Shown piece after piece: positions 15,648 through 36,129 of a DNA stretch of 64,000 nucleotides. The DNA is taken from positions 2,598,001 through 2,662,000 of the forward strand of contig LR882958.1 in the NCBI GenBank assembly GCA_904830895.1, read 5' to 3'. Positions within the stretch are counted from its first letter, which is position 1, and each line of letters begins with the position of its first letter. A program made the position numbers and the translations under genes. Below the pieces are notes generated by a model. That model had not been told where the DNA came from. It was given only the letters and a program-made list of their open reading frames with translations, and searched no databases. The DNA comes from Planktothrix rubescens CCAP 1459/22. Its GTDB lineage: Bacteria; Cyanobacteriota; Cyanobacteriia; Cyanobacteriales; Microcoleaceae.

Positions 15648-15773
15648 TTATCATTTTAAATTCAAAATTTTTGTAAAAAGCAAGCGATCGCTCTTGATTT
15701 TATAGCAACCGCCAAGGCAGTTAAGACACCAGACGGATCTTGGAACCCAGACGGTAAAGTGTTTTCCCCCGGT

Positions 15774-15948
15774 GTTCCCTCCCCCCCTAGCCTGCCGTGC
15801 ACGGGGGGTTTGGGGGGGCTGTTCCCTGCTATATCAGGCTGCGATCGCTAACTTTTTACTCTTTCAGGACTTACGCAAATTTGGGGATGTAACCCTATAT
15901 GTAGGGGTAATTCATGAATTACCTCTACTAGCGTTTTTTACCGTCATC
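15774..15948. repeat. C/G-tract palindrome plus truncated MITE left end: left boundary of tandem unit 1
   Basis: Covers most of the 301-bp gap after the GH3 gene. It contains the interspersed palindrome GTTCCCTCCCCCC...GTGCAC...GGGGGGCTGTTCCCT, then a HIP1 site, then at 15865 the MITE end CAGGACTTACGC without a matching right end, and a palindrome GGGGTAATTCATGAATTACC. From 15774 onward it matches 25951 onward; to its left it does not. The remaining 15648-15773 holds one HIP1 octamer and nothing else I recognise. Confidence 0.75.
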
Positions 15949-16787
15949 TCAGTGGGTTGTTAACCGCGTTAATACTTGGTTAGAACGTTCTACAAAGTCC
16001 TTCATCCCTTCAGCATCAAAGCCTTTTTGAGCAATTAAAGCTAAGTCATAGACATGATGACAAATCATATTCGCTAATTCCGTCGAAGGAGATTCACCAC
16101 CTTCTTGAATAATCGCCCCTTGACTCAAATTCACTAAATTCTGAATTAACGGATGGGCAATATTAATTAACAGAATATGTTCCTCTGGAAATTCAACTTT
16201 TTGTTGCTGCATCAGGGCTGTCATATCCTGTAACCGTCGCATAAATTCCGGCAATAATACCATCGCGGGCGGGGTATTTTCGGATTTCAAGGATTCAGTC
16301 CGAATCGTTAATTTAGGCTTGTTTAAAGCTGCGGTAAACAGGTCTTTAATGATTTCACTGCGGGTTTTATTGGTTTTAGGATCAACAATTTCAGGACTAT
16401 TATCCTTAGCAATTAAATTGTCATCTAGTTCCGCATCCACCCGGGCAAACTTAACATCAGTGTGTTCCCGTTCTAGGAAACTAATAAAATGACTATCAAT
16501 AAAGGAATCGAAGAACAAAACTTCTAGCCCTTGACTGGTATGTAACTGAATATAAGTGGCTTGAGTTGTTTCATCGGTACAATAAAATACCCGATTCTCA
16601 TGGCGCTCTTTATTGCGTTCGAGATATTCGCTTAAGGTGGTGTAGTAACGACCTTTTTCGTCGGTATTATCAGAAGTTGGAGAAGCAACATCCTGCCAAA
16701 CATCCCCGTCTTCGGTTTGCACTTGGACTTGGGTAGGAACGGCAACAGGCCCATCCTCCGTTGACCCAGTGGCATCGTCTGGAGTTG

Positions 16788-16904
16788 ACCCCCCCGGCCC
16801 CCCCTTATCAAGGGGGGGATTAGAAGTGGAGTCCCCCTCGGTAAGGGGGGGATTAGAAGTGGAGTCCTCAATAGCCCCACCCTTGGTAAGGGGGGGGTTG
16901 GGGG
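16788..16904 (-). repeat. In-frame palindromic repeat array inside htpG
   Basis: On the plus strand the stretch contains three CCCTT/CTCGGTAAGGGGGG or TTATCAAGGGGGG palindrome units, two followed by ATTAGAAGTGGAGTCC. On the coding strand it stays in the htpG frame and encodes about 40 residues rich in P, G, D and S, with DSTSNPPL appearing twice. It lies between the middle and C-terminal domains. It is also the target of the insertion sequence. The same array is present in copy 2 (about 26958-27072). Confidence 0.8.
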
Positions 16905-18327
16905 CAGGGCTGTTTCAAAGTCAGGTGAAAAAGAGTAAAGAAAGAGCGATCGCCACCTGATAAAATGGAGAGCGATCACCATTTTTTTCTAAAATAAAGA
17001 TGCTAACAAGTTTAATAGAAAATTTAAAAGAAGTCAAGGATTTCCGAAAAAATCAGGGAAAAAGGTATAGTTTATGGGAAGTGCTATTAGTAGTAGTTTT
17101 AGGGGTGATGTCAGGGCATCAAGGATATCGAGAGATGGAATATTTTGTCAAAGCCAACGAAGTTATCCTGAAAAGAACATTCAATATCTATAGCCAAGGA
17201 ATGCCATCTTATTCAACAATAAGGAGGGTGATGAGAGGAGTAGACGAGAAGGATTTAAGCAAAATAGTAAAAGAATGGTCAAGAGAGAATTCTCCTAAAT
17301 TAAAGGGAATAGAGGGATTAGCAATAGATGGAAAAAGTTTAAGAAGTACGGTAAAAGACCCAGGCAATCAGCAGCAAAACATGGTAATAATGGTATCTCT
17401 ATTTAGTCAAGAAACCGGATTAGTATTAGCGACGGAAAAGTTCGAGAGTAAAACCGGTTCAGAACAAGCTGTAGCCCAAGGGATAATAGAAGAATGTGGT
17501 CTAAAAGGAAAGTTAATAACTGCGGATGCGTTACATTGTAATGTCACCACAGTCCGAAAGATTATCGAGAGTGAAAACGATTATTTAATCGCGGTTAAAA
17601 AGAATCAAATCAAACTGTATAATCAAATTGAAAAAATTACAAAAACGACGAAAGCTGAAAGTATAGATACTCAAAAAGAGAGGGGTCATGGACGAGAAAT
17701 AACTCGTCGGGTATCAGTGTTTAAAAATTCGATAAAAATTGAAAGCCCTTGGGAACATATTCAAAGTATAATTCAGGTAGAAAGGTGGGGATACAGAGGA
17801 AAAAAGCCTTATAGAGAAACGGTTTATTATATAAGTAGTATCTGGGAAAAGGCGGATTTTTTTTCCAAAAAAATTAAAGGGCATTGGGGGATTGAGAATC
17901 AAGTTCATTGGGTAAAAGATGTGTTATTTAAAGAGGATAGTATGAAAATTCATCAAGTACAAGCCGCGACTAATTGGGCACTGCTCAACACCCTAGGATT
18001 GAATATTTTCAGAGGTTTAGGATTTTTGTCAATAACAGAGGGAAGAAGGTGGTTAGGAAATCATTGGGAGAAATTAGTGGCTATCTCTTAATCCGAAGGT
18101 TAAAAATGAAAAAATAGAGCAATTAATTTAGGAAAAATAGATAAAAATCGGGAATGTAAGTCTTACTCCATAGGGAATAAGAATATTTATGCTGCTTAGA
18201 TAATACCTCCTATAATTAATATTAATATAGCAATTATATGAAATATTAATTATTCGGAAAATAGCTATCATGTTTGAGAATTATGACCCAAAAGTAGGCT
18301 ATAATTTTCAAACATGAAACAGCCCTG
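16905..18327 (+). mobile_element. ISAs1-family insertion sequence, 1423 bp, intact, inside htpG copy 1
   Basis: Terminal inverted repeats CAGGGCTGTTTCA (left) and TGAAACAGCCCTG (right), 13 bp perfect. Flanked by a 10-bp direct duplication GGGTTGGGGG at 16895-16904 and 18328-18337. It carries one transposase gene on the plus strand, opposite to htpG, and about 220 bp of non-coding sequence after it. Duplication length and transposase type fit the ISAs1 family. Confidence 0.93.
17000..18091 (+). CDS. ISAs1-family transposase, full length
   Basis: 363 residues. Catalytic triad candidates: D110 in LAIDGKS, D176 in LITADALHC and E299 in HWGIENQVHWVKDV, the DDE pattern of the ISAs1/H-repeat group. 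The N-terminal segment (RYSLWEVLLVVVLGVMSG) matches the family's associated domain. The length is as expected and no frameshift is seen, so this copy may be active. It lies in the element that splits htpG copy 1. Confidence 0.95.
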   Translation: MLTSLIENLKEVKDFRKNQGKRYSLWEVLLVVVLGVMSGHQGYREMEYFVKANEVILKRTFNIYSQGMPSYSTIRRVMRGVDEKDLSKIVKEWSRENSPKLKGIEGLAIDGKSLRSTVKDPGNQQQNMVIMVSLFSQETGLVLATEKFESKTGSEQAVAQGIIEECGLKGKLITADALHCNVTTVRKIIESENDYLIAVKKNQIKLYNQIEKITKTTKAESIDTQKERGHGREITRRVSVFKNSIKIESPWEHIQSIIQVERWGYRGKKPYRETVYYISSIWEKADFFSKKIKGHWGIENQVHWVKDVLFKEDSMKIHQVQAATNWALLNTLGLNIFRGLGFLSITEGRRWLGNHWEKLVAIS

Positions 18328-19633
18328 GGGTTGGGGGGGGTATAGGTAGTACGACAAATCAGAATATCATCAACTTGTTTTTTAAACTTATCATCGTTGA
18401 GGGAACCAAACTTAACAAAGGTTCCGATATCTTGCCAACAACGGATATATTCTTTGCGGTTATCCCGATATAATTCTTTCAGACGGTCAGCGACTTTTTT
18501 CGCTACATAATCGGCAATTTTACGGACGGTGCGATTAGTTTGTAAAGCACTGCGGGAAATATTCAAAGGAATATCCGTACTATCAATAACCCCCCGTAAT
18601 GGCATCAAGAATTTGGGGATAATATCTTCGCAGTGGTCACTGACAAAGACTTGATTACAGAACAGTTTAATATTGCCCTGGGTGACATCCACATCGGGTT
18701 TGAGTTTGGGAAAATACAGAATCCCATTCACAATAAAAGGATAATCCGTATTCAGATGTACCCATAATAGGGGTTCTTCTTGGAAGGGATAAAGATAGCG
18801 ATAGAGCTCTAAATAATCTTCTTCGGTTAAATTATTAGGAGATTCCCGCCAGGGTGCTTTTTGGCGGTTGATGATTTCGCCGTCCAACTTAATCGGGACG
18901 GGCATAAAATCACAATAGGTTTTAATTAATTGACGGATGCGGGAGGGTTCGGTATATTCGATTTCCTCATCCATCAAAGTCAGGGTAATAGTAGTTCCCC
19001 GTTGGATGCGGCCAGAGTCTTCCAGTTTGAATACCGGAGAACCATCGCAAATCCAGTGGACGGCTTGGGAACCCTCTTTGTAGGACAGGGTATCAATTTC
19101 GACTTGACGGGCGACCATGAAGGAGGAGTAAAACCCTAAACCAAAATGACCAATGATAGACTGGTCAGAGTTGGCCTGATATTTTTCGATGAATTCTTCG
19201 GCGCTGGAAAAGGCGACTTGGTTAATATATTTTTTGACTTCCTCGGCGGTCATCCCGATGCCATTATCGGTGATGGAGAGGGTTTTGTTGTCTTTATCGA
19301 GGGTGATGGTGATTTCGGGTTCGCCCGCATCCCCGGAATATTCCCCAGACCGGGACACCATATTCAGTTTAGCGATGGCGTCAACGGCGTTGGAAACCAG
19401 TTCCCGCAGGAAGACTTCATGGTCGGTGTAGAGGGACTTTTTGATAATTGGGAAGATATTCTCGGTATGGATTGTAATGGTTCCCTGTTCGAGTACAGTC
19501 ATAGCTATCTTAGGTTATCTATAAAATTAGAGTTGTTATTTATGATTGTGTGCGATCGCCGTTCCCTTACTAGGGATGGATGACCGCCCAAAGGTTGATT
19601 CGGATTTCCGTATTAATGAAAAGAAGTAAATCG

Positions 19634-23935: not shown

Positions 23936-24874
23936 TTATTTTTTGTCAATTAAATAATGGCTCAAAGTATAAAAAGGACTTAAAGCACTTTTCCAAAAAA
24001 ATCTTAATTCACAGGCTGTTACTAGATCGATATTAACATGATGTTTATATTTTAACAAATGTTGCATCACTCGTTTCATACTTCCTAAAAATACTCTCAC
24101 AGCAATCATGGGTTTCTGCCGATTTTTTACCAGCATTGCTCGAAACTTAAAGGTAGATAACCCATAGCGATCTGCTAAACTTAATAAATATTTTCTTTCT
24201 AACCGTTCACCAGGAATATAATGGTTTATGTGCATCTTATGATTATACCAAATTTCCCAACCTTGATTATAAAAATGAATCGATATTTCATAATCATTAT
24301 CGCCTCGATCTGTATCAACTAACTCAGGAATAAAATGATTAAACCAAGCCTCTCGACGAATAACCAAGCCTGCACCTGATGGTAATTTTAACTGTTCTGG
24401 ACAAAATAAAAAGGGTTGATCACCACTTTCTCGAATGGCCAATAATAAATGTTCAATACGTTTAAAATTTTCCGGTGGTTTAACTTCATAAATACCATGA
24501 ATTTGCCCCCCATAACTTCCCGCTTTAGGATGTTCTTGACCAAATAAATAGGCTTGTAAAACCCAATCAGAATTAGGGAAATTATCATCATCAAGAAACC
24601 CAATTAATTCTCCTTGACTTTCTTCTATTCCTTTTTGTCGGGCAAAAGCAATACCTTGTTTCGCTTCAAACACATACCGGAGCGGAAAAACTTCCTGCCA
24701 AGATGCAATAATATTCTGAACTACATCAGCCGTTTGATCATTACTATTATTATCAACAATAATAATCTCCCAAGCGATATTTTCTGTTCCGGTTTGCGAT
24801 CGCAATTTCTCTAAAACATCGGGAACACGACTAGCACCATTATAGGTGGGAATAACAACAGTAAAATCGATCAT
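23936..24874 (-). CDS. GT2-family glycosyltransferase, mosaic with the gene at 34025
   Basis: 312 residues from the ATG at 24874, which overlaps the preceding stop as ATGA. VVIPTYNGASR, IVDNNSNDQT and FLDDDNFPNSDWV are GT2 motifs. Residues 1 to about 168 are nearly identical to the unit 2 protein; after PSGAGLV the two diverge sharply although they remain homologous (both have NDYEIS and EIWYN). The break at about 24372 coincides with the edge of the conserved arm, so this gene straddles arm and core. Confidence 0.88.
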   Translation of the reverse strand: MIDFTVVIPTYNGASRVPDVLEKLRSQTGTENIAWEIIIVDNNSNDQTADVVQNIIASWQEVFPLRYVFEAKQGIAFARQKGIEESQGELIGFLDDDNFPNSDWVLQAYLFGQEHPKAGSYGGQIHGIYEVKPPENFKRIEHLLLAIRESGDQPFLFCPEQLKLPSGAGLVIRREAWFNHFIPELVDTDRGDNDYEISIHFYNQGWEIWYNHKMHINHYIPGERLERKYLLSLADRYGLSTFKFRAMLVKNRQKPMIAVRVFLGSMKRVMQHLLKYKHHVNIDLVTACELRFFWKSALSPFYTLSHYLIDKK

Positions 24875-25824
24875 AATTTTTTTAGATAAGATGTTTTCCA
24901 CAAATAAAAAGGACTGATCACACTACTATTTAAAAATTCCATTTCACAGGCTGCCACCACATCGGTTTTTAATTCTTTTCGATGTTTTAGATAATAAGCG
25001 ATCGTTTTTCTAATATCATTGGCTAACCCTAGAGGAAATAATAACGGCCGTTGCCAAGGCTTTAACCGTAACATCCGAATATGATGCCGTGCTAACCCCG
25101 TACTTCGCATCAAAAATAATAAATAATCCCGTTCTAACCGTTGTTTGGGAATTTGATGATAGAGGTGCATTTCTGAATTATACCAAATTTCCCAACCCGC
25201 ATTTTGAATATACATGATCGCTTCTAAATCTTCACTATTCAAAATAGATTGACTAGAACGTCCAGTTAAAAATGTTTTTTCCGGTACATTTTCGACCCAA
25301 ACTTGACGACGCACCACCAACCCAGCAGAAGGCGGTAACATCTTCAGATTGGGTTCATATAAATGGGGATTATCTCCCCGTTCAGTAATAGCAAAAAAAC
25401 CAGAAATCCGATTAAAATTAGTCGGGGTTTCTACTTCATAAACCCCATGGATTTGACTTCCAAATGCGCCAGCTTGAGAATGTTCTTGAGCAAAATTATA
25501 GGCTTTTTCCACCCAATCTAAGTCAGGAATAGTATCATCATCTAAGAAGCCAATCAACAAAGATTCCGACTCTTTAATTGCTCTTTTTCGGGCGAAAGCT
25601 GCCCCTTGTTCTGTTTCTAAACAGTATTTTAAAGGAACATTATCTAACCAATTATGTTGATAATTTTTAACTAATTCTGCGGTATGATCTGTGCTATTAT
25701 TATCAACAATTAAGATTTCCCAGTTGATCTGTTCTGTTCCGGTTTGCGATCGCAATTTTTCTAAAACCGCAGGTAAACGGGTCGCGCCATTATAGGTAGG
25801 AATAGCGATAGTAATATCAACCAT
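24871..25824 (-). CDS. GT2-family glycosyltransferase (conserved arm, unit 1)
   Basis: 317 residues. ITIAIPTYNGATRLPAVL, LIVDNNSTDHT and FLDDDTIPDLDWV are the donor and metal-binding motifs. The protein is nearly identical to that at 34960-35913; a few substitutions are seen (DYLLFL versus EYLLFL, and several near the C-terminus). First gene of a three-gene operon. The upstream 90 bp are also conserved and hold the presumed promoter. Confidence 0.88.
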   Translation of the reverse strand: MVDITIAIPTYNGATRLPAVLEKLRSQTGTEQINWEILIVDNNSTDHTAELVKNYQHNWLDNVPLKYCLETEQGAAFARKRAIKESESLLIGFLDDDTIPDLDWVEKAYNFAQEHSQAGAFGSQIHGVYEVETPTNFNRISGFFAITERGDNPHLYEPNLKMLPPSAGLVVRRQVWVENVPEKTFLTGRSSQSILNSEDLEAIMYIQNAGWEIWYNSEMHLYHQIPKQRLERDYLLFLMRSTGLARHHIRMLRLKPWQRPLLFPLGLANDIRKTIAYYLKHRKELKTDVVAACEMEFLNSSVISPFYLWKTSYLKKL

Positions 25825-25911
25825 AATGAGTGATAGGGATTAAAATTTCCTGTTTTTATTATAACTCAGTTGAATAGCAAGAGACGGTGCACCAAATGTT
25901 TCTTACTATTC

Positions 25912-26125
25912 TAAGTACCTAAACAAAATTAATTACACATCCTCCACCCTGTTCCCTCCCCCCCTAGCCCCCTGTACACGGGGGGTTTGGGGGGGCTGTT
26001 CCCTGCTATATCAGGCTGCGATCGCTAACTTTTTACTCTTTCAGGACTTACGCAAATTTGGGGATGTAACCCTATATGTAGGGGTAATTCATGAATTACC
26101 TCTACTAGCGTTTTTTACCGTCATC
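25912..26125. repeat. Hybrid repeat at the centre of the tandem duplication
   Basis: The left part (TAAGTACCTAAACAAAATT ... CACCCTGTTCC) matches the element at 36001; the right part, from the second GTTCCCTGCTATATCAGG onward, matches the sequence after 15815. The switch occurs within the shared C/G-tract palindrome (25951-26003). A truncated MITE end CAGGACTTACGC is at 26042. This is what a crossover between the two outer repeats would give. Confidence 0.85.
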
Positions 26126-27072
26126 TCAGTGGGTTGTTAACCGCGTTAATACTTGGTTAGAACGTTCTACAAAGTCCTTCATCCCTTCAGCATCAAAGCC
26201 TTTTTGAGCAATTAAAGCTAAGTCATAGACATGATGACAAATCATATTCGCTAATTCCGTCGAAGGAGATTCACCACCTTCTTGAATAATCGCCCCTTGA
26301 CTCAAATTCACTAAATTCTGAATTAACGGATGGGCAATATTAATTAACAGAATATGTTCCTCTGGAAATTCAACTTTTTGTTGCTGCATCAGGGCTGTCA
26401 TATCCTGTAACCGTCGCATAAATTCCGGCAATAATACCATCGCGGGCGGGGTATTTTCGGATTTCAAGGATTCAGTCCGAATCGTTAATTTAGGCTTGTT
26501 TAAAGCTGCGGTAAACAGGTCTTTAATGATTTCACTGCGGGTTTTATTGGTTTTAGGATCAACAATTTCAGGACTATTATCCTTAGCAATTAAATTGTCA
26601 TCTAGTTCCGCATCCACCCGGGCAAACTTAACATCAGTGTGTTCCCGTTCTAGGAAACTAATAAAATGACTATCAATAAAGGAATCGAAGAACAAAACTT
26701 CTAGCCCTTGACTGGTATGTAACTGAATATAAGTGGCTTGAGTTGTTTCATCGGTACAATAAAATACCCGATTTTCATGGCGTTCTTTATTGCGTTCGAG
26801 ATATTCGCTTAAGGTGGTGTAGTAACGACCTTTTTCGTCGGTATTATCAGAAGTTGGAGAAGCAACATCTTGCCAAACATCCCCGTCTTCGGTTTGCACT
26901 TGGACTTGGGTAGGAACGGCAACAGGCCCATCCTCCGTTGACCCCTGCGGAGTTGACCCCCCCAGCCCCCCCTTATCAAGGGGGGGATTAGAAGTGGTGT
27001 CCCCCTCGGTAAGGGGGGGATTAGAAGTGGAGTCCTCAATAGCCCCACCCTTGGTAAGGGGGGGGTTGGGGG

Positions 27073-28346
27073 CAGGGCTGTTTCATGTTTGAAAATTATA
27101 GCCTACTTTTGGGTCATAATTCTCAAACATGATAGCTATTTTCCGAATAATTAATATTTCATATAATTGCTATATTAATATTAATTATAGGAGGTATTAT
27201 CTAAGCAGCATAAATATTCTTATTCCCTATGGAGTAAGACTTACATTCCCGATTTTTATCTATTTTTCCTAAATTAATTGCTCTATTTTTTCATTTTTAA
27301 CCTTCGGATTAAGAGATAGCCACTAATTTCTCCCAATGATTTCCTAACCACCTTCTTCCCTCTGTTATTGACAAAAATCCTAAACCTCTGAAAATATTCA
27401 ATCCTAGGGTGTTGAGCAGTGCCCAATTAGTCGCGGCTTGTACTTGATGAATTTTCATACTATCCTCTTTAAATAACACATCTTTTACCCAATGAACTTG
27501 ATTCTCAATCCCCCAATGCCCTTTAATTTTTTTGGAAAAAAAATCCGCCTTTTCCCAGATACTACTTATATAATAAACCGTTTCTCTATAAGGCTTTTTT
27601 CCTCTGTATCCCCACCTTTCTACCTGAATTATACAGTTTGATTTGATTCTTTTTAACCGCGATTAAATAATCGTTTTCACTCTCGATAATCTTTCGGACT
27701 GTGGTGACATTACAATGTAACGCATCCGCAGTTATTAACTTTCCTTTTAGACCACATTCTTCTATTATCCCTTGGGCTACAGCTTGTTCTGAACCGGTTT
27801 TACTCTCGAACTTTTCCGTCGCTAATACTAATCCGGTTTCTTGACTAAATAGAGATACCATTATTACCATGTTTTGCTGCTGATTGCCTGGGTCTTTTAC
27901 CGTACTTCTTAAACTTTTTCCATCTATTGCTAATCCCTCTATTCCCTTTAATTTAGGAGAATTCTCTCTTGACCATTCTTTTACTATTTTGCTTAAATCC
28001 TTCTCGTCTACTCCTCTCATCACCCTCCTTATTGTTGAATAAGATGGCATTCCTTGGCTATAGATATTGAATGTTCTTTTCAGGATAACTTCGTTGGCTT
28101 TGACAAAATATTCCATCTCTCGATATCCTTGATGCCCTGACATCACCCCTAAAACTACTACTAATAGCACTTCCCATAAACTATACCTTTTTCCCTGATT
28201 TTTTCGGAAATCCTTGACTTCTTTTAAATTTTCTATTAAACTTGTTAGCATCTTTATTTTAGAAAAAAATGGTGATCGCTCTCCATTTTATCAGGTGGCG
28301 ATCGCTCTTTCTTTACTCTTTTTCACCTGACTTTGAAACAGCCCTG
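27073..28346 (-). mobile_element. ISAs1-family insertion sequence, 1274 bp, inverted and deleted, inside htpG copy 2
   Basis: Same 13-bp ends as the element at 16905 but in reverse orientation. Same flanking duplication GGGTTGGGGG at 27063-27072 and 28347-28356. It is 149 bp shorter; the missing part lies between two GTATAAT heptamers (17617 and 17766 in the intact copy), and one heptamer remains at the junction (27628-27634 on the plus strand as ATTATAC). Confidence 0.93.
27309..28251 (-). pseudogene. ISAs1-family transposase with a 149-bp internal deletion
   Basis: The start is identical to the intact transposase through KNQIKLYN (about residue 209). The deletion shifts the frame and translation stops at 27586; the DDE glutamate region (HWGIENQVHW) remains as DNA but is out of frame. 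The deleted length is not a multiple of three. This copy cannot make active transposase by itself but keeps both ends, so it could be moved by the intact copy. Confidence 0.93.
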
Positions 28347-29597
28347 GGGTTGGGGGGGGTATAGCTAGTACGACAAATCAGAATATCCTCAACTTGTTTT
28401 TTAAACTTGTCATCGTTGAGGGAACCAAACTTAACAAAGGTGCCGATATCTTGCCAACAACGGATATATTCTTTGCGGTTATCCCGATATAATTCTTTCA
28501 GACGGTCAGCGACTTTTTTCGCTACATAATCGGCAATTTTACGGACGGTGCGATTAGTTTGTAAAGCACTGCGGGAAATATTCAAAGGAATATCCGTACT
28601 ATCAATAACCCCCCGTAATGGCATCAAGAATTTGGGGATAATATCTTCGCAGTGGTCACTGACAAAGACTTGATTACAGAACAGTTTAATATTGCCCTGG
28701 GTGACATCCACATCGGGTTTGAGTTTGGGAAAATACAGAATCCCATTCACAATAAAAGGATAATCCGTATTCAGATGTACCCATAATAGGGGTTCTTCTT
28801 GGAAGGGATAAAGATAGCGATAGAGCTCTAAATAATCTTCTTCGGTTAAATTATTAGGAGATTCCCGCCAGGGTGCTTTTTGGCGGTTGATGATTTCGCC
28901 GTCCAACTTAATCGGGACGGGCATAAAATCACAATAGGTTTTAATTAATTGACGGATGCGGGAGGGTTCGGTATATTCGATTTCCTCATCCATCAAAGTC
29001 AGGGTAATAGTAGTTCCCCGTTGGATGCGGCCAGAGTCTTCCAGTTTGAATACCGGAGAACCATCGCAAATCCAGTGGACGGCTTGGGAACCCTCTTTGT
29101 AGGACAGGGTATCAATTTCGACTTGACGGGCTACCATGAAGGAGGAGTAAAACCCTAAACCAAAATGACCGATGATAGACTGGTCAGAGTTGGCTTGATA
29201 TTTTTCGATGAATTCTTCGGCGCTGGAAAAGGCGACTTGGTTAATATATTTTTTGACTTCCTCGGCGGTCATCCCGATGCCATTATCGGTGATGGAGAGG
29301 GTTTTGTTGTCTTTATCGAGGGTGATGGTGATTTCGGGTTCGCCCGCATCCCCGGAATATTCCCCAGACCGCGACACCATATTCAGTTTAGCGATGGCGT
29401 CAACGGCGTTAGAAACCAGTTCCCGCAGGAAGACTTCATGGTCTGTATAGAGGGATTTTTTGATAATCGGGAAGATATTCTCGGTATGGATTGTAATCGT
29501 TCCCTGTTCAAGTACAGTCATAGTGATGTCAGGTTATCTATAAAATCATGGTTGTATTTAGATTGTGTGCGATCGCTGTTCCCTTACTAGGGATGGA

Positions 29598-30482
29598 TCA
29601 CCGCCCCAAAGTTGATTCGGATTTCCGCATCTGCAATTTAGCTAATTTTTCGCTAAATTCCAAATTTGCTGTTGAGAGTTGTTGTAGAATATACTGTTTC
29701 TGTTCTTCATTAAACAATTGATTGAATTTTTGACCAGAGGTATTATAAATTCCCTGTTGGACGGAAACCTTCCAATATTCAAAGGGTAAGATTACGTTTT
29801 CAGCAACTTTCTGATAATTCTCTAACATTGTAGGTTCATATTTTACGCCAATAAAATCGCAAAGTTCAGATAAAACTAAAAGTTGATTATCAATTAATTG
29901 TTCATATTGAACTAGGATATGATTGGGTTTATGGAGATGGTTCAAACTTAACCGAACATCATTAATCCATTGTCTGATACAACGGTCTAAATCCCAAGCC
30001 CCTCGCCAGTCTTCAGGATACTGGTGAGTGACATCATAAAGGGATGTGACAACATCGGCCCCATTCCTAACCAAATGAATAAATTTTGCACCTTCAACTC
30101 GTTTTTCAATATAGCTAATATAATATAAATTTCCAGGGGTTTTTTCTAACCATAGGCTTTTTTCTTGTTGTTGGGTTAATTCATCTAAAACTCGAATAAA
30201 TCCCTTGATATACTGAATAGTAAAAACCGCCGTTTTGGGTAAATATCGTTCCAATTCGGGATGACCTGTTTCTACTAAAAATTGGTCAAATCGTTGTCGA
30301 GCTAAAGGAGAAGGAATTCTCAATTTTCTCCGCCAAGTTGAACGATTTCCCAATAAATAGCGGAAAAAATGGGATTCAGGAAAAGAGGCAATTTGAGAAT
30401 GAGCCGCTAATAAACTTTGTAATAGCGTTGTTCCTGACCGGGGACAGCCAACTAGAAATAATCGGGGGTAAGAATGTTTCAA
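29598..30482 (-). CDS. Sulfotransferase-family protein (unit 2 core)
   Basis: 294 residues, TTG start at 30482 (no ATG in a better place; the protein opens directly into the motif). PAPS loop GCPRSGTTLLQSLL (about 12-25) and second motif FIHLVRNGADVVTSL (about 134-148). It belongs to the same superfamily as the unit 1 gene in the same position and orientation, but the two share little beyond these motifs, so sulfation specificity probably differs. Confidence 0.85.
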   Translation of the reverse strand: MKHSYPRLFLVGCPRSGTTLLQSLLAAHSQIASFPESHFFRYLLGNRSTWRRKLRIPSPLARQRFDQFLVETGHPELERYLPKTAVFTIQYIKGFIRVLDELTQQQEKSLWLEKTPGNLYYISYIEKRVEGAKFIHLVRNGADVVTSLYDVTHQYPEDWRGAWDLDRCIRQWINDVRLSLNHLHKPNHILVQYEQLIDNQLLVLSELCDFIGVKYEPTMLENYQKVAENVILPFEYWKVSVQQGIYNTSGQKFNQLFNEEQKQYILQQLSTANLEFSEKLAKLQMRKSESTLGR

Positions 30483-34024: not shown

Positions 34025-34963
34025 CTAAGATTTTTTGAATATAACTTTTTGTAAAAAATAAAAAGGACTGATAGCACTCGCTCGAAAAAACTCCAATTCA
34101 CAAGCAGCAACGATATCAATTTCAATATCTTTTTTATGCTTAATTTGATGTTTAATATAACGTTTAATACCTCCTAACATAACTTTAAAAAATGTTATTG
34201 TTTTTTTCCATTTAGGCGTGATTAACATTCTAAATTCACAGGATTTTAAACCATATAAAGAAGCCAGAGATAATAAATATTTTTTTTCGAGACGATCAGA
34301 AGGGATATAGTGATTAAGGTGCATTTCTGGGTTGTACCAAATTTCCCAACCTCCCTTATATAAATTTAAGGAAATTTCATAATCATTTCCCCCTCGTCCC
34401 GTATTCACGAGTTGCAAAGGAACGTGATCTAACCATGCTTGTTTACGCACAACTAACCCCGCACCTGATGGTAATTTTAACTGTTCTGGACAAAATAAAA
34501 AGGGTTGATCACCGCTTTCTCGAATAGCTAATAATAAATGTTCAATACGTTTAAAGTTTTCAGGTGGTTTAACTTCATAAATACCATGAATTTGCCCCCC
34601 ATAACTTCCAGCTTTAGGATGTTCTTGACCAAATAAATAGGCTTGTAAAACCCAATCTGAATTAGGGAAATTATCATCATCAAGAAACCCAATTAATTCT
34701 CCTTGACTTTCTTCTATTCCTTTTTGTCGGGCAAAAGCAATTCCCTGTTTCGCTTCAAATACATACTTTAGCGGAAAAATTTCTTGCCAAGATATGATCA
34801 TATTCTGAACTACATCAGCCGTTTGATCATTACTATTATTATCAACAACAATAATTTCCCAAGTGATATTTTCTGTTCCGGTTTGCAATCGCAATTTTTC
34901 TAAAACATCGAGAACACGACTAGCACCATTATAGGTGGGAATCACAACAGTAAAATCGATCAT
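34025..34963 (-). CDS. GT2-family glycosyltransferase, mosaic with the gene at 23936
   Basis: 312 residues from the ATG at 34963, coupled to the upstream gene by an ATGA overlap. Motifs VVIPTYNGASR, VVDNNSNDQT and FLDDDNFPNSDWV. The first about 168 residues match the unit 1 paralogue almost exactly; the last about 140 differ (for example RKQAWLDHVPLQLVNTGRGG against RREAWFNHFIPELVDTDRGD). The C-terminal half normally shapes the acceptor site in GT2 enzymes, so the pair may differ in acceptor. Confidence 0.88.
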   Translation of the reverse strand: MIDFTVVIPTYNGASRVLDVLEKLRLQTGTENITWEIIVVDNNSNDQTADVVQNMIISWQEIFPLKYVFEAKQGIAFARQKGIEESQGELIGFLDDDNFPNSDWVLQAYLFGQEHPKAGSYGGQIHGIYEVKPPENFKRIEHLLLAIRESGDQPFLFCPEQLKLPSGAGLVVRKQAWLDHVPLQLVNTGRGGNDYEISLNLYKGGWEIWYNPEMHLNHYIPSDRLEKKYLLSLASLYGLKSCEFRMLITPKWKKTITFFKVMLGGIKRYIKHQIKHKKDIEIDIVAACELEFFRASAISPFYFLQKVIFKKS

Positions 34964-35913
34964 AATTTTTTTAGATAAGATGTTTTCCACAAATAAAAAG
35001 GACTGGTCACACTACTTTTTAAAAATTCCAGTTCACAGGCTGTCACCACATCAGTTTTTAATTCTTTTCGATGTTTCAGATAATAAGCGATCGCTTTTCT
35101 AATATCATTGGCTAACCCTATGGGAAATAATAACGGCCGTTGCCAAGGTTTTAACCGTAACATCCGAATATGATGCCGTGCTAACCCCGTACTCCGCATC
35201 AAAAATAATAAATACTCCCTTTCTAATCGTTGTTTGGGAATTTGATGATAGAGGTGCATTTCTGAATTATACCAAATTTCCCACCCAGCATTTTGAATAT
35301 ACATGATCGCTTCTAAATCTTCACTATTCAAAATAGATTGACTAGAACGTCCAGTTAAAAATGTTTTTTCCGGTACATTTTCGACCCAAACTTGACGACG
35401 CACCACCAACCCAGCAGAAGGCGGTAACATCTTCAGATTGGGTTCATATAAATGGGGATTATCTCCCCGTTCAGTAATAGCAAAAAAACCAGAAATCCGA
35501 TTAAAATTAGTCGGGGTTTCTACTTCATAAACCCCATGGATTTGACTTCCAAATGCGCCAGCTTGAGAATGTTCTTGAGCAAAATTATAGGCTTTTTCCA
35601 CCCAATCTAAGTCAGGAATAGTATCATCATCTAAGAAGCCAATCAACAAAGATTCCGACTCTTTAATTGCTCTTTTTCGGGCGAAAGCTGCCCCTTGTTC
35701 TGTTTCTAAACAGTATTTTAAAGGAACATTATCTAACCAATTATGTTGATAATTTTTAACTAATTCTGCGGTATGATCTGTGCTATTATTATCAACAATT
35801 AAGATTTCCCAGTTGATCTGTTCTGTTCCGGTTTGCGATCGCAATTTTTCTAAAACCGCAGGTAAACGGGTCGCGCCATTATAGGTAGGAATAGCGATAG
35901 TAATATCAACCAT
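34960..35913 (-). CDS. GT2-family glycosyltransferase (conserved arm, unit 2)
   Basis: 317 residues, almost the same as the protein at 24871-25824. ITIAIPTYNGATR, LIVDNNSTDHT and FLDDDTIPDLDWV are present. It is separated from its unit 1 copy by exactly 10089 bp with no net insertion or deletion over about 1.6 kb, indicating a recent duplication or gene conversion of this arm. It begins the operon with the mosaic gene downstream. Confidence 0.88.
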   Translation of the reverse strand: MVDITIAIPTYNGATRLPAVLEKLRSQTGTEQINWEILIVDNNSTDHTAELVKNYQHNWLDNVPLKYCLETEQGAAFARKRAIKESESLLIGFLDDDTIPDLDWVEKAYNFAQEHSQAGAFGSQIHGVYEVETPTNFNRISGFFAITERGDNPHLYEPNLKMLPPSAGLVVRRQVWVENVPEKTFLTGRSSQSILNSEDLEAIMYIQNAGWEIWYNSEMHLYHQIPKQRLEREYLLFLMRSTGLARHHIRMLRLKPWQRPLLFPIGLANDIRKAIAYYLKHRKELKTDVVTACELEFLKSSVTSPFYLWKTSYLKKL

Positions 35914-36000
35914 AATGAGTGATAGGGATTAAAATTTCCTGTTTTTATTATAGCTCAGTTGAATAGCAAGAGACGGTGCACCAAATGTTTCTTACTATTC

Positions 36001-36129
36001 TAAGTACCTAAACAAAATTAATTACACATCCTCCACCCTGTTCCATCCCCCCCTAGCCCCCCGTGCACGGGGGGTTTGGGGGGGCTGTTCCCTCTCTCAA
36101 CTAGGTAATTTATTTTGTGTAACTACTTA
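36001..36129. repeat. 129-bp small interspersed element (copy C), right boundary of tandem unit 2
   Basis: Uninterrupted version of the element at 942-1167: TAAGTACCTAAACAAAAT at one end, imperfect inverse at the other, and a GTGCAC-centred C/G palindrome in the middle. It lies between the GT2 operon and the 3' end of clpB. It provides the empty site that defines the inner MITE of copy A. Confidence 0.8.

Follow-up and report, generated by a model that had tools for sequence, protein, structure and literature searches.

Judging by the reading frames that stay open across its copies, a family of C/G palindromes forms part of the coding sequence of dozens of genes in a Planktothrix genome. One of these genes, htpG, is present twice in the window, the 64,000-nt stretch of the 5.46-Mb Planktothrix chromosome (genome G000) analysed here. 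The repeat unit (consensus about (T)ACCCCCCCTARCCCCCCCTTRSTAAKGGGGGGGAA, approximately 33 bp, a multiple of three) would have been inserted, in the lineage of this strain, into a poorly conserved loop that htpG already had, and become three tandem units. It is stop-free in the frame used and would encode a Pro/Gly-rich, probably disordered linker, and purifying selection between the gene copies suggests that HtpG tolerated it, presumably through this disorder. The gene would then have been duplicated in tandem after the linker was gained, and the insertion sequence ISPlr1 would later have hit both copies, independently, at the same 10 bp; as a side effect, captured palindromes may plant IS landing sites inside genes. 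We consider this account as a whole, from linker gain and tolerance through duplication and the two ISPlr1 hits to a genome-wide class of coding repeats, highly probable.

Both htpG copies are on the minus strand (19502-15949 and 29521-26126), approximately 98% identical and approximately 10 kb apart. The N-terminal part of copy 1 (18328..19502, an ORF with Pfam HATPase_c and HSP90 domains) comprises the ATP-binding domain and the start of the middle domain and ends at one copy of a target duplication, and the C-terminal part with most of the linker (15949..16904) is supported by its translation and a Pfam HSP90 match. In copy 2, the N-terminal part lies at 28347..29521 and the C-terminal part, including the linker (26906-27072), at 26126..27072. 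A genome of the same species, G001, has a single uninterrupted htpG of 659 aa in the same neighbourhood, with putative genes (names read from translations) for an LptF/G-type permease and glycosyltransferases and a clpB-like gene, and the locus in the window hence appears to be an expanded version of that in G001. The tandemly duplicated htpG region covers 15773-19613 and 25950-29630 (98% identical), and a C/G palindrome lies at the left ends of the duplicated copies. Glycosyltransferase genes near htpG are also duplicated in tandem (23969-26004 and 34058-36093, 91% identical). A search of the whole genome found no htpG beyond the two interrupted copies, so the strain is probably without an intact chaperone and has probably lost HtpG function.

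In both copies, three tandem C/G palindromes lie between TYT and VQVQTE, and the minus-strand htpG frame stays open across them (PNPPLTKGGAIEDSTSNPPLTEGDSTSNPPLDKGGPGGSTPDDATGSTEDGPVAVPTQ), as the first-pass annotation of this DNA had proposed. The palindrome pattern CCCCCTTNNNAAGGGGGG, allowing up to three mismatches, has 26 matches in the window, mostly inside the two htpG copies, compared with 2.0 ± 1.9 in 100 dinucleotide shuffles (largest 7). The linker of copy 1 (minus strand, 16729..16904) has 59 residues when 18328-18340 is included, and that of copy 2 has 56. Palindromic unit 1 (16876..16904) consists of an arm, a C-run and a TTACCAA core, and a pattern search places unit 2 at 16833..16852, followed by TTAGAAGTGGAGTC, and unit 3, CCCCCTTATCAAGGGGGG, at 16790..16820. 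Relatives have 12 residues at this place, PESVNNEEKAVD or a near variant (eight Planktothrix genomes with an htpG match), which gives a net gain of 47 residues in copy 1 and 44 in copy 2, slightly more than the 40 or so first estimated. The motif DSTSNPPL, described as occurring twice, does so in copy 1, whereas the second motif of copy 2 is DTTSNPPL; the reported difference of three codons between the copies is present (STPDDATGST versus STPQGST).

An alignment of HtpG, the check suggested in the first-pass annotation, finds the linker only in the copies of the window. Nine other Planktothrix genomes were searched for htpG; the ninth, 73% complete, gave no match, and both the linker and the repeat DNA are absent from the htpG of the other eight, one of them of the same species. 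The linker is also absent from the named cyanobacterial htpG loci (L064-L079, of which L075, with no htpG upstream of the match, is uninformative), and among these there is no case of the linker in a distant cyanobacterium without repeat-like DNA, the observation that had been named as speaking against capture. Presence here and absence in relatives point to an insertion event in htpG, with the linker gained in the Planktothrix lineage of the window. The 12 ancestral loop residues are partly replaced in the linker-bearing gene, so what is seen today is not a clean insertion. Other repeat-like inserts occur at or near the same place in Stenomitos (L068) and Lyngbya (L076), which suggests that this HtpG loop is generally tolerant. 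A PDB search places the variable stretch within query residues 371 to 427, opposite approximately 21 residues of TRAP1. By this comparison, the linker is placed within the HtpG middle domain, apparently at the join of its two sub-domains, and not between domains as first described. An AlphaFold model of the C-terminal part of linker-bearing HtpG (mean pLDDT 39, from a 16-row alignment) was discarded as too poor.

The element that interrupts copy 1 (16905..18327, plus strand, 1423 bp) has the ends CAGGGCTGTTTCA/TGAAACAGCCCTG and is flanked by a perfect 10-bp target duplication, GGGTTGGGGG, at 16895-16904 and 18328-18337. Its transposase gene (17000..18091, plus strand, 1092 bp, 363 aa, Pfam DDE_Tnp_1_assoc and DDE_Tnp_1) has the length given in PMC9366434, and the element is identified as ISPlr1 (ISAs1 family) by the match in length, ends, 10-bp duplication and the 1092-bp gene. 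Copy 2 carries ISPlr1 on the minus strand (27073..28346, 1274 bp) with the same duplication; this element has lost 149 bp internally, and its transposase is truncated. Other internally rearranged ISPlr1 copies are found at L016, L019 and L022 and at L017 and L020. In htpG the insertion point is the 5' arm of the repeat, and the duplicated 10 bp are the arm of palindromic unit 1; that the repeat supplied the IS target, as had been suggested, is thus borne out.

The two elements share their 10-bp target but have opposite orientations, and they are 100% and 99.6% identical over two aligned parts, whereas the htpG copies differ by approximately 2%. The simplest reading of this is that each htpG copy was hit independently after the duplication. 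An alternative is that ISPlr1 inserted before htpG was duplicated and that one element was then inverted in place or replaced by recombination; this would fit the identical target in both copies, and gene conversion is possible in direct repeats, but we regard it as improbable. The order of the flanks is kept in both copies, and if inverted IS copies recombined, the DNA between them would be inverted, not the IS alone. Furthermore, near-complete identity of the IS outside the deletion, set against the divergence of the genes, dates the IS probably to after the duplication, and repeated hits of ISPlr1 in such repeats are known.

Across G000, 13 of 15 ISPlr1 elements, counted from the printed flanks, sit in C/G palindromes, which by a rough estimate cover approximately 0.24% of the genome; the other two are both on contig C2. 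Every full-length copy has a 10-bp duplication (CCCCTAGCCC, CCCAAACCCC and GGGTTGGGGG are among them); the 13 include two fragments that have no matching duplication. The preference of ISPlr1 for C/G palindromes is already published: Chen 2016 (PMC4766695) reports ISPlr1 only in REP-like C/G repeats of the mcy cluster, and Entfellner et al. 2022 (PMC9366434) give ISPlr1 copy numbers and propose that such repeats might direct the element. ISPlr1 had no match in the plasmid collection. A second IS in G000 (L025-L028), approximately 79% identical to ISPlr1 over its first 243 bases, has four copies, all of which begin beside C/G-rich, palindrome-like DNA.

With the flanks joined and one duplication copy dropped, the empty htpG sites give uninterrupted frames of 706 and 703 aa. 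Codon differences between the copies outside the linker number 16 synonymous and two non-synonymous (dN 0.0013, dS 0.039), and the resulting dN/dS of approximately 0.03 indicates purifying selection, although recombination could have brought in one of the copies, in which case selection acting in separate lineages may account for part of it. The linker is common to both copies, and their divergence therefore probably arose with the linker present. Linker-bearing HtpG was hence probably functional before the IS insertions.

The htpG linker is one of many cases in the genome, in line with the initial impression of a likeness to in-frame repeats of other bacteria. On one strand of G000, 149 matches to CCCCCTTNNNAAGGGGGG were counted with up to two mismatches allowed, compared with 20 for a control. 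Sites were clustered and sampled by region, with the sample taking in exact matches plus the listed one-mismatch matches; 28 of the 49 are in frame inside long ORFs, meaning ORFs of 250 aa or more in which the site has 50 aa or more on either side. These 28 sites fall in 25 ORFs, with gene status judged by open frames and Pfam domains and not by a gene finder; 23 of the 25 have Pfam domains, which argues against the repeats merely lying in spurious ORFs. The repeat-bearing ORFs, essential genes among them, include AlaRS, ProRS, PurL, UvrA, NAD synthase, aconitase B, HypF, CbiD, SfsA, a PFOR-type oxidoreductase, Lnt, CHAT proteins and NRPS modules. All three reading frames are used, with 29, 12 and 13 units of the PPLTKGG, PPLLRGG and PPYQGG types, respectively, which argues for insertion of DNA and against a shared protein motif. 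Of control positions displaced within these regions, 60% lie in such ORFs, compared with 57% of the repeats, so we claim no enrichment in genes over chance, only that the usual exclusion from genes is missing.

This is not a property of all C/G palindromes in the genome. A sister family with the core GTGCAC (233 sites in G000) lies in ORFs at only one of 30 sampled sites (L191-L220), against 28/49 for the coding family (Fisher p = 5e-7). The GTGCAC family is the most frequent ISPlr1 target. Within the CCCCCTTNNNAAGGGGGG-type family, in-gene copies (28) and other copies (21) have differing consensus sequences. The description of the htpG repeat as 'intergenic-type' is therefore right about the C/G palindromes but not about their being merely intergenic. 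We predict, from the open frames and the low dN/dS in htpG, that the repeat is translated and retained in the decorated proteins.

For htpG, alaS, proS and purL, relatives have alleles that are empty. The alaS site is empty in four Planktothrix genomes, holds a 57-bp insert of two palindromic halves in two and a 102-bp insert in one, and has 171 bp as two tandem units in G000, which corresponds to 0, 19, 34 or 57 extra AlaRS residues among Planktothrix species. All alaS insert lengths are multiples of three except in G001 (L133, L141), where, besides four units being present, a G-run has lost one base; the resulting frameshift in this essential gene represents either a sequencing error or phase variation. 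The proS insert is present in G000 and G005, and most relatives are without it. In purL, three genomes have a short repeat-free stretch and three have other short inserts, compared with two units in G001 and three in G000. In G004 and G006, the purL match is split by approximately 1.4 kb near residues 151-161 (L224, L229, L236, L238) with the frame open across the split (1831 and 1265 aa), possibly an intein.

The short pattern occurs in 105 of 120 genomes of the order, many with more than 50 matches, whereas many units with the coding-type arm occur in G000 and some other genera of the family. G000 has 56 strand matches to coding-type units, and the other Planktothrix genomes, among those listed, have 0-18. 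In another genus, 18 of 24 sites (G065) and 16 of 26 sites (G142) are in frame in long ORFs, among them putative urease alpha, homoserine kinase and ValRS genes (names read from flanking peptides), and the PurL repeat of this genus is at the same site as in Planktothrix. In a third genus (G010), few of the 15 sampled exact-match sites are in ORFs.

The breadth of the repeat also bears on what the linker does in HtpG. An adaptive role, for example in tuning a hinge of the middle domain, would agree with its retention in both copies and with purifying selection on its flanks; we nevertheless find selection for such a function very unlikely, given that the unit occurs in many unrelated enzymes, which points to tolerance rather than benefit, that its number varies freely in AlaRS, and that both htpG copies were interrupted afterwards. 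Least credible of all is an ancestral origin, with the linker an ordinary low-complexity Pro/Gly stretch that is C/G-rich by chance and only convergent with intergenic repeats: the HtpG loop does vary in length and sequence in all cyanobacteria, with the Stenomitos and Lyngbya inserts nearby, but eight other Planktothrix genomes have htpG without the linker, the unit recurs in unrelated genes in three frames, which convergence at the protein level would not give, and AlaRS has empty, single and multiple alleles.

Capture of a tolerated repeat has its closest behavioural parallel in the Rickettsia palindromic elements (RPE), in-frame palindromes described by Ogata in 2000 and 2002 (as cited in PMC10969869 and PMC3733652). 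As with RPE, short palindromic repeats are found in frame in many unrelated conserved genes, including housekeeping enzymes, and are apparently tolerated, so that the Planktothrix palindrome works like an RPE by analogy of behaviour. RPE are approximately 150 bp long and from another phylum, whereas the Planktothrix unit is a C/G palindrome of approximately 33 bp that is read in three frames, expands in tandem and doubles as an ISPlr1 target. Intragenic GTAG/CGTC REPs of Opitutus, Xanthomonas and others also lie inside ORFs, often grouped, add 20-80 residues and include tRNA synthetases and uvrA among their targets (PMC3733652). However, neither a GTAG nor a CGTC tag is present in the Planktothrix repeat consensus (28 coding and 21 other copies), and the cyanobacterial families in that study are from Anabaena, Nostoc and Cyanothece, not Planktothrix.

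The repeat regions RR1-7 of Chen 2016 (PMC4766695), some of them inside mcyA and mcyD, share with htpG the same IS, ends, 10-bp duplication and C/G palindrome targets, but several of the duplications given in that paper (CCCGTGCACG, CGTGCACGGG) indicate GTGCAC-type palindromes. The passages covered here mention neither in-frame capture in further genes nor absence from relatives nor the double loss of htpG. IS elements that specifically target palindromic repeats are known (Tobes and Pareja 2006, PMC1525189), with the difference that those repeats are extragenic, whereas in htpG the target is intragenic because the repeat is. In the literature searched, which covered few subscription journals, no account of in-frame capture in Planktothrix or relatives came to light apart from the mcy repeats, and its scale (28/49 sites) appears unreported there. 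Work by Elhai from 2008 on small dispersed repeats of Nostoc may bear on in-frame capture.

The palindrome is presumably mobile, although we found neither a target duplication nor a transposase of its own. GTAG/CGTC REPs are mobilised by RAYT, for which a flanking Y1 transposase gene is expected; none of the six Y1 transposase (PF01797) hits is directly flanked by palindromes, and a REP-type Y1 transposase was therefore rejected as the mover. It is possible, though we lean against it, that the coding sub-family represents selfish DNA specialised for genes, with a unit of approximately 33 bp and cores that avoid stops in the frame used, and that tolerant loops of housekeeping proteins are its preferred sites of spread throughout the family of Planktothrix, while the sister sub-family stays intergenic.

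The best-known protein-coding palindromes are those of Rickettsia and a small number of other bacteria; here they appear by the dozen in free-living, bloom-forming cyanobacteria. The alleles before and after insertion in close relatives are a natural experiment in how repeat DNA becomes protein sequence and in how much inserted sequence essential enzymes tolerate. Since the repeat attracts ISPlr1, a captured copy would also be a predictable weak point for gene breakage, as apparently happened twice in htpG.
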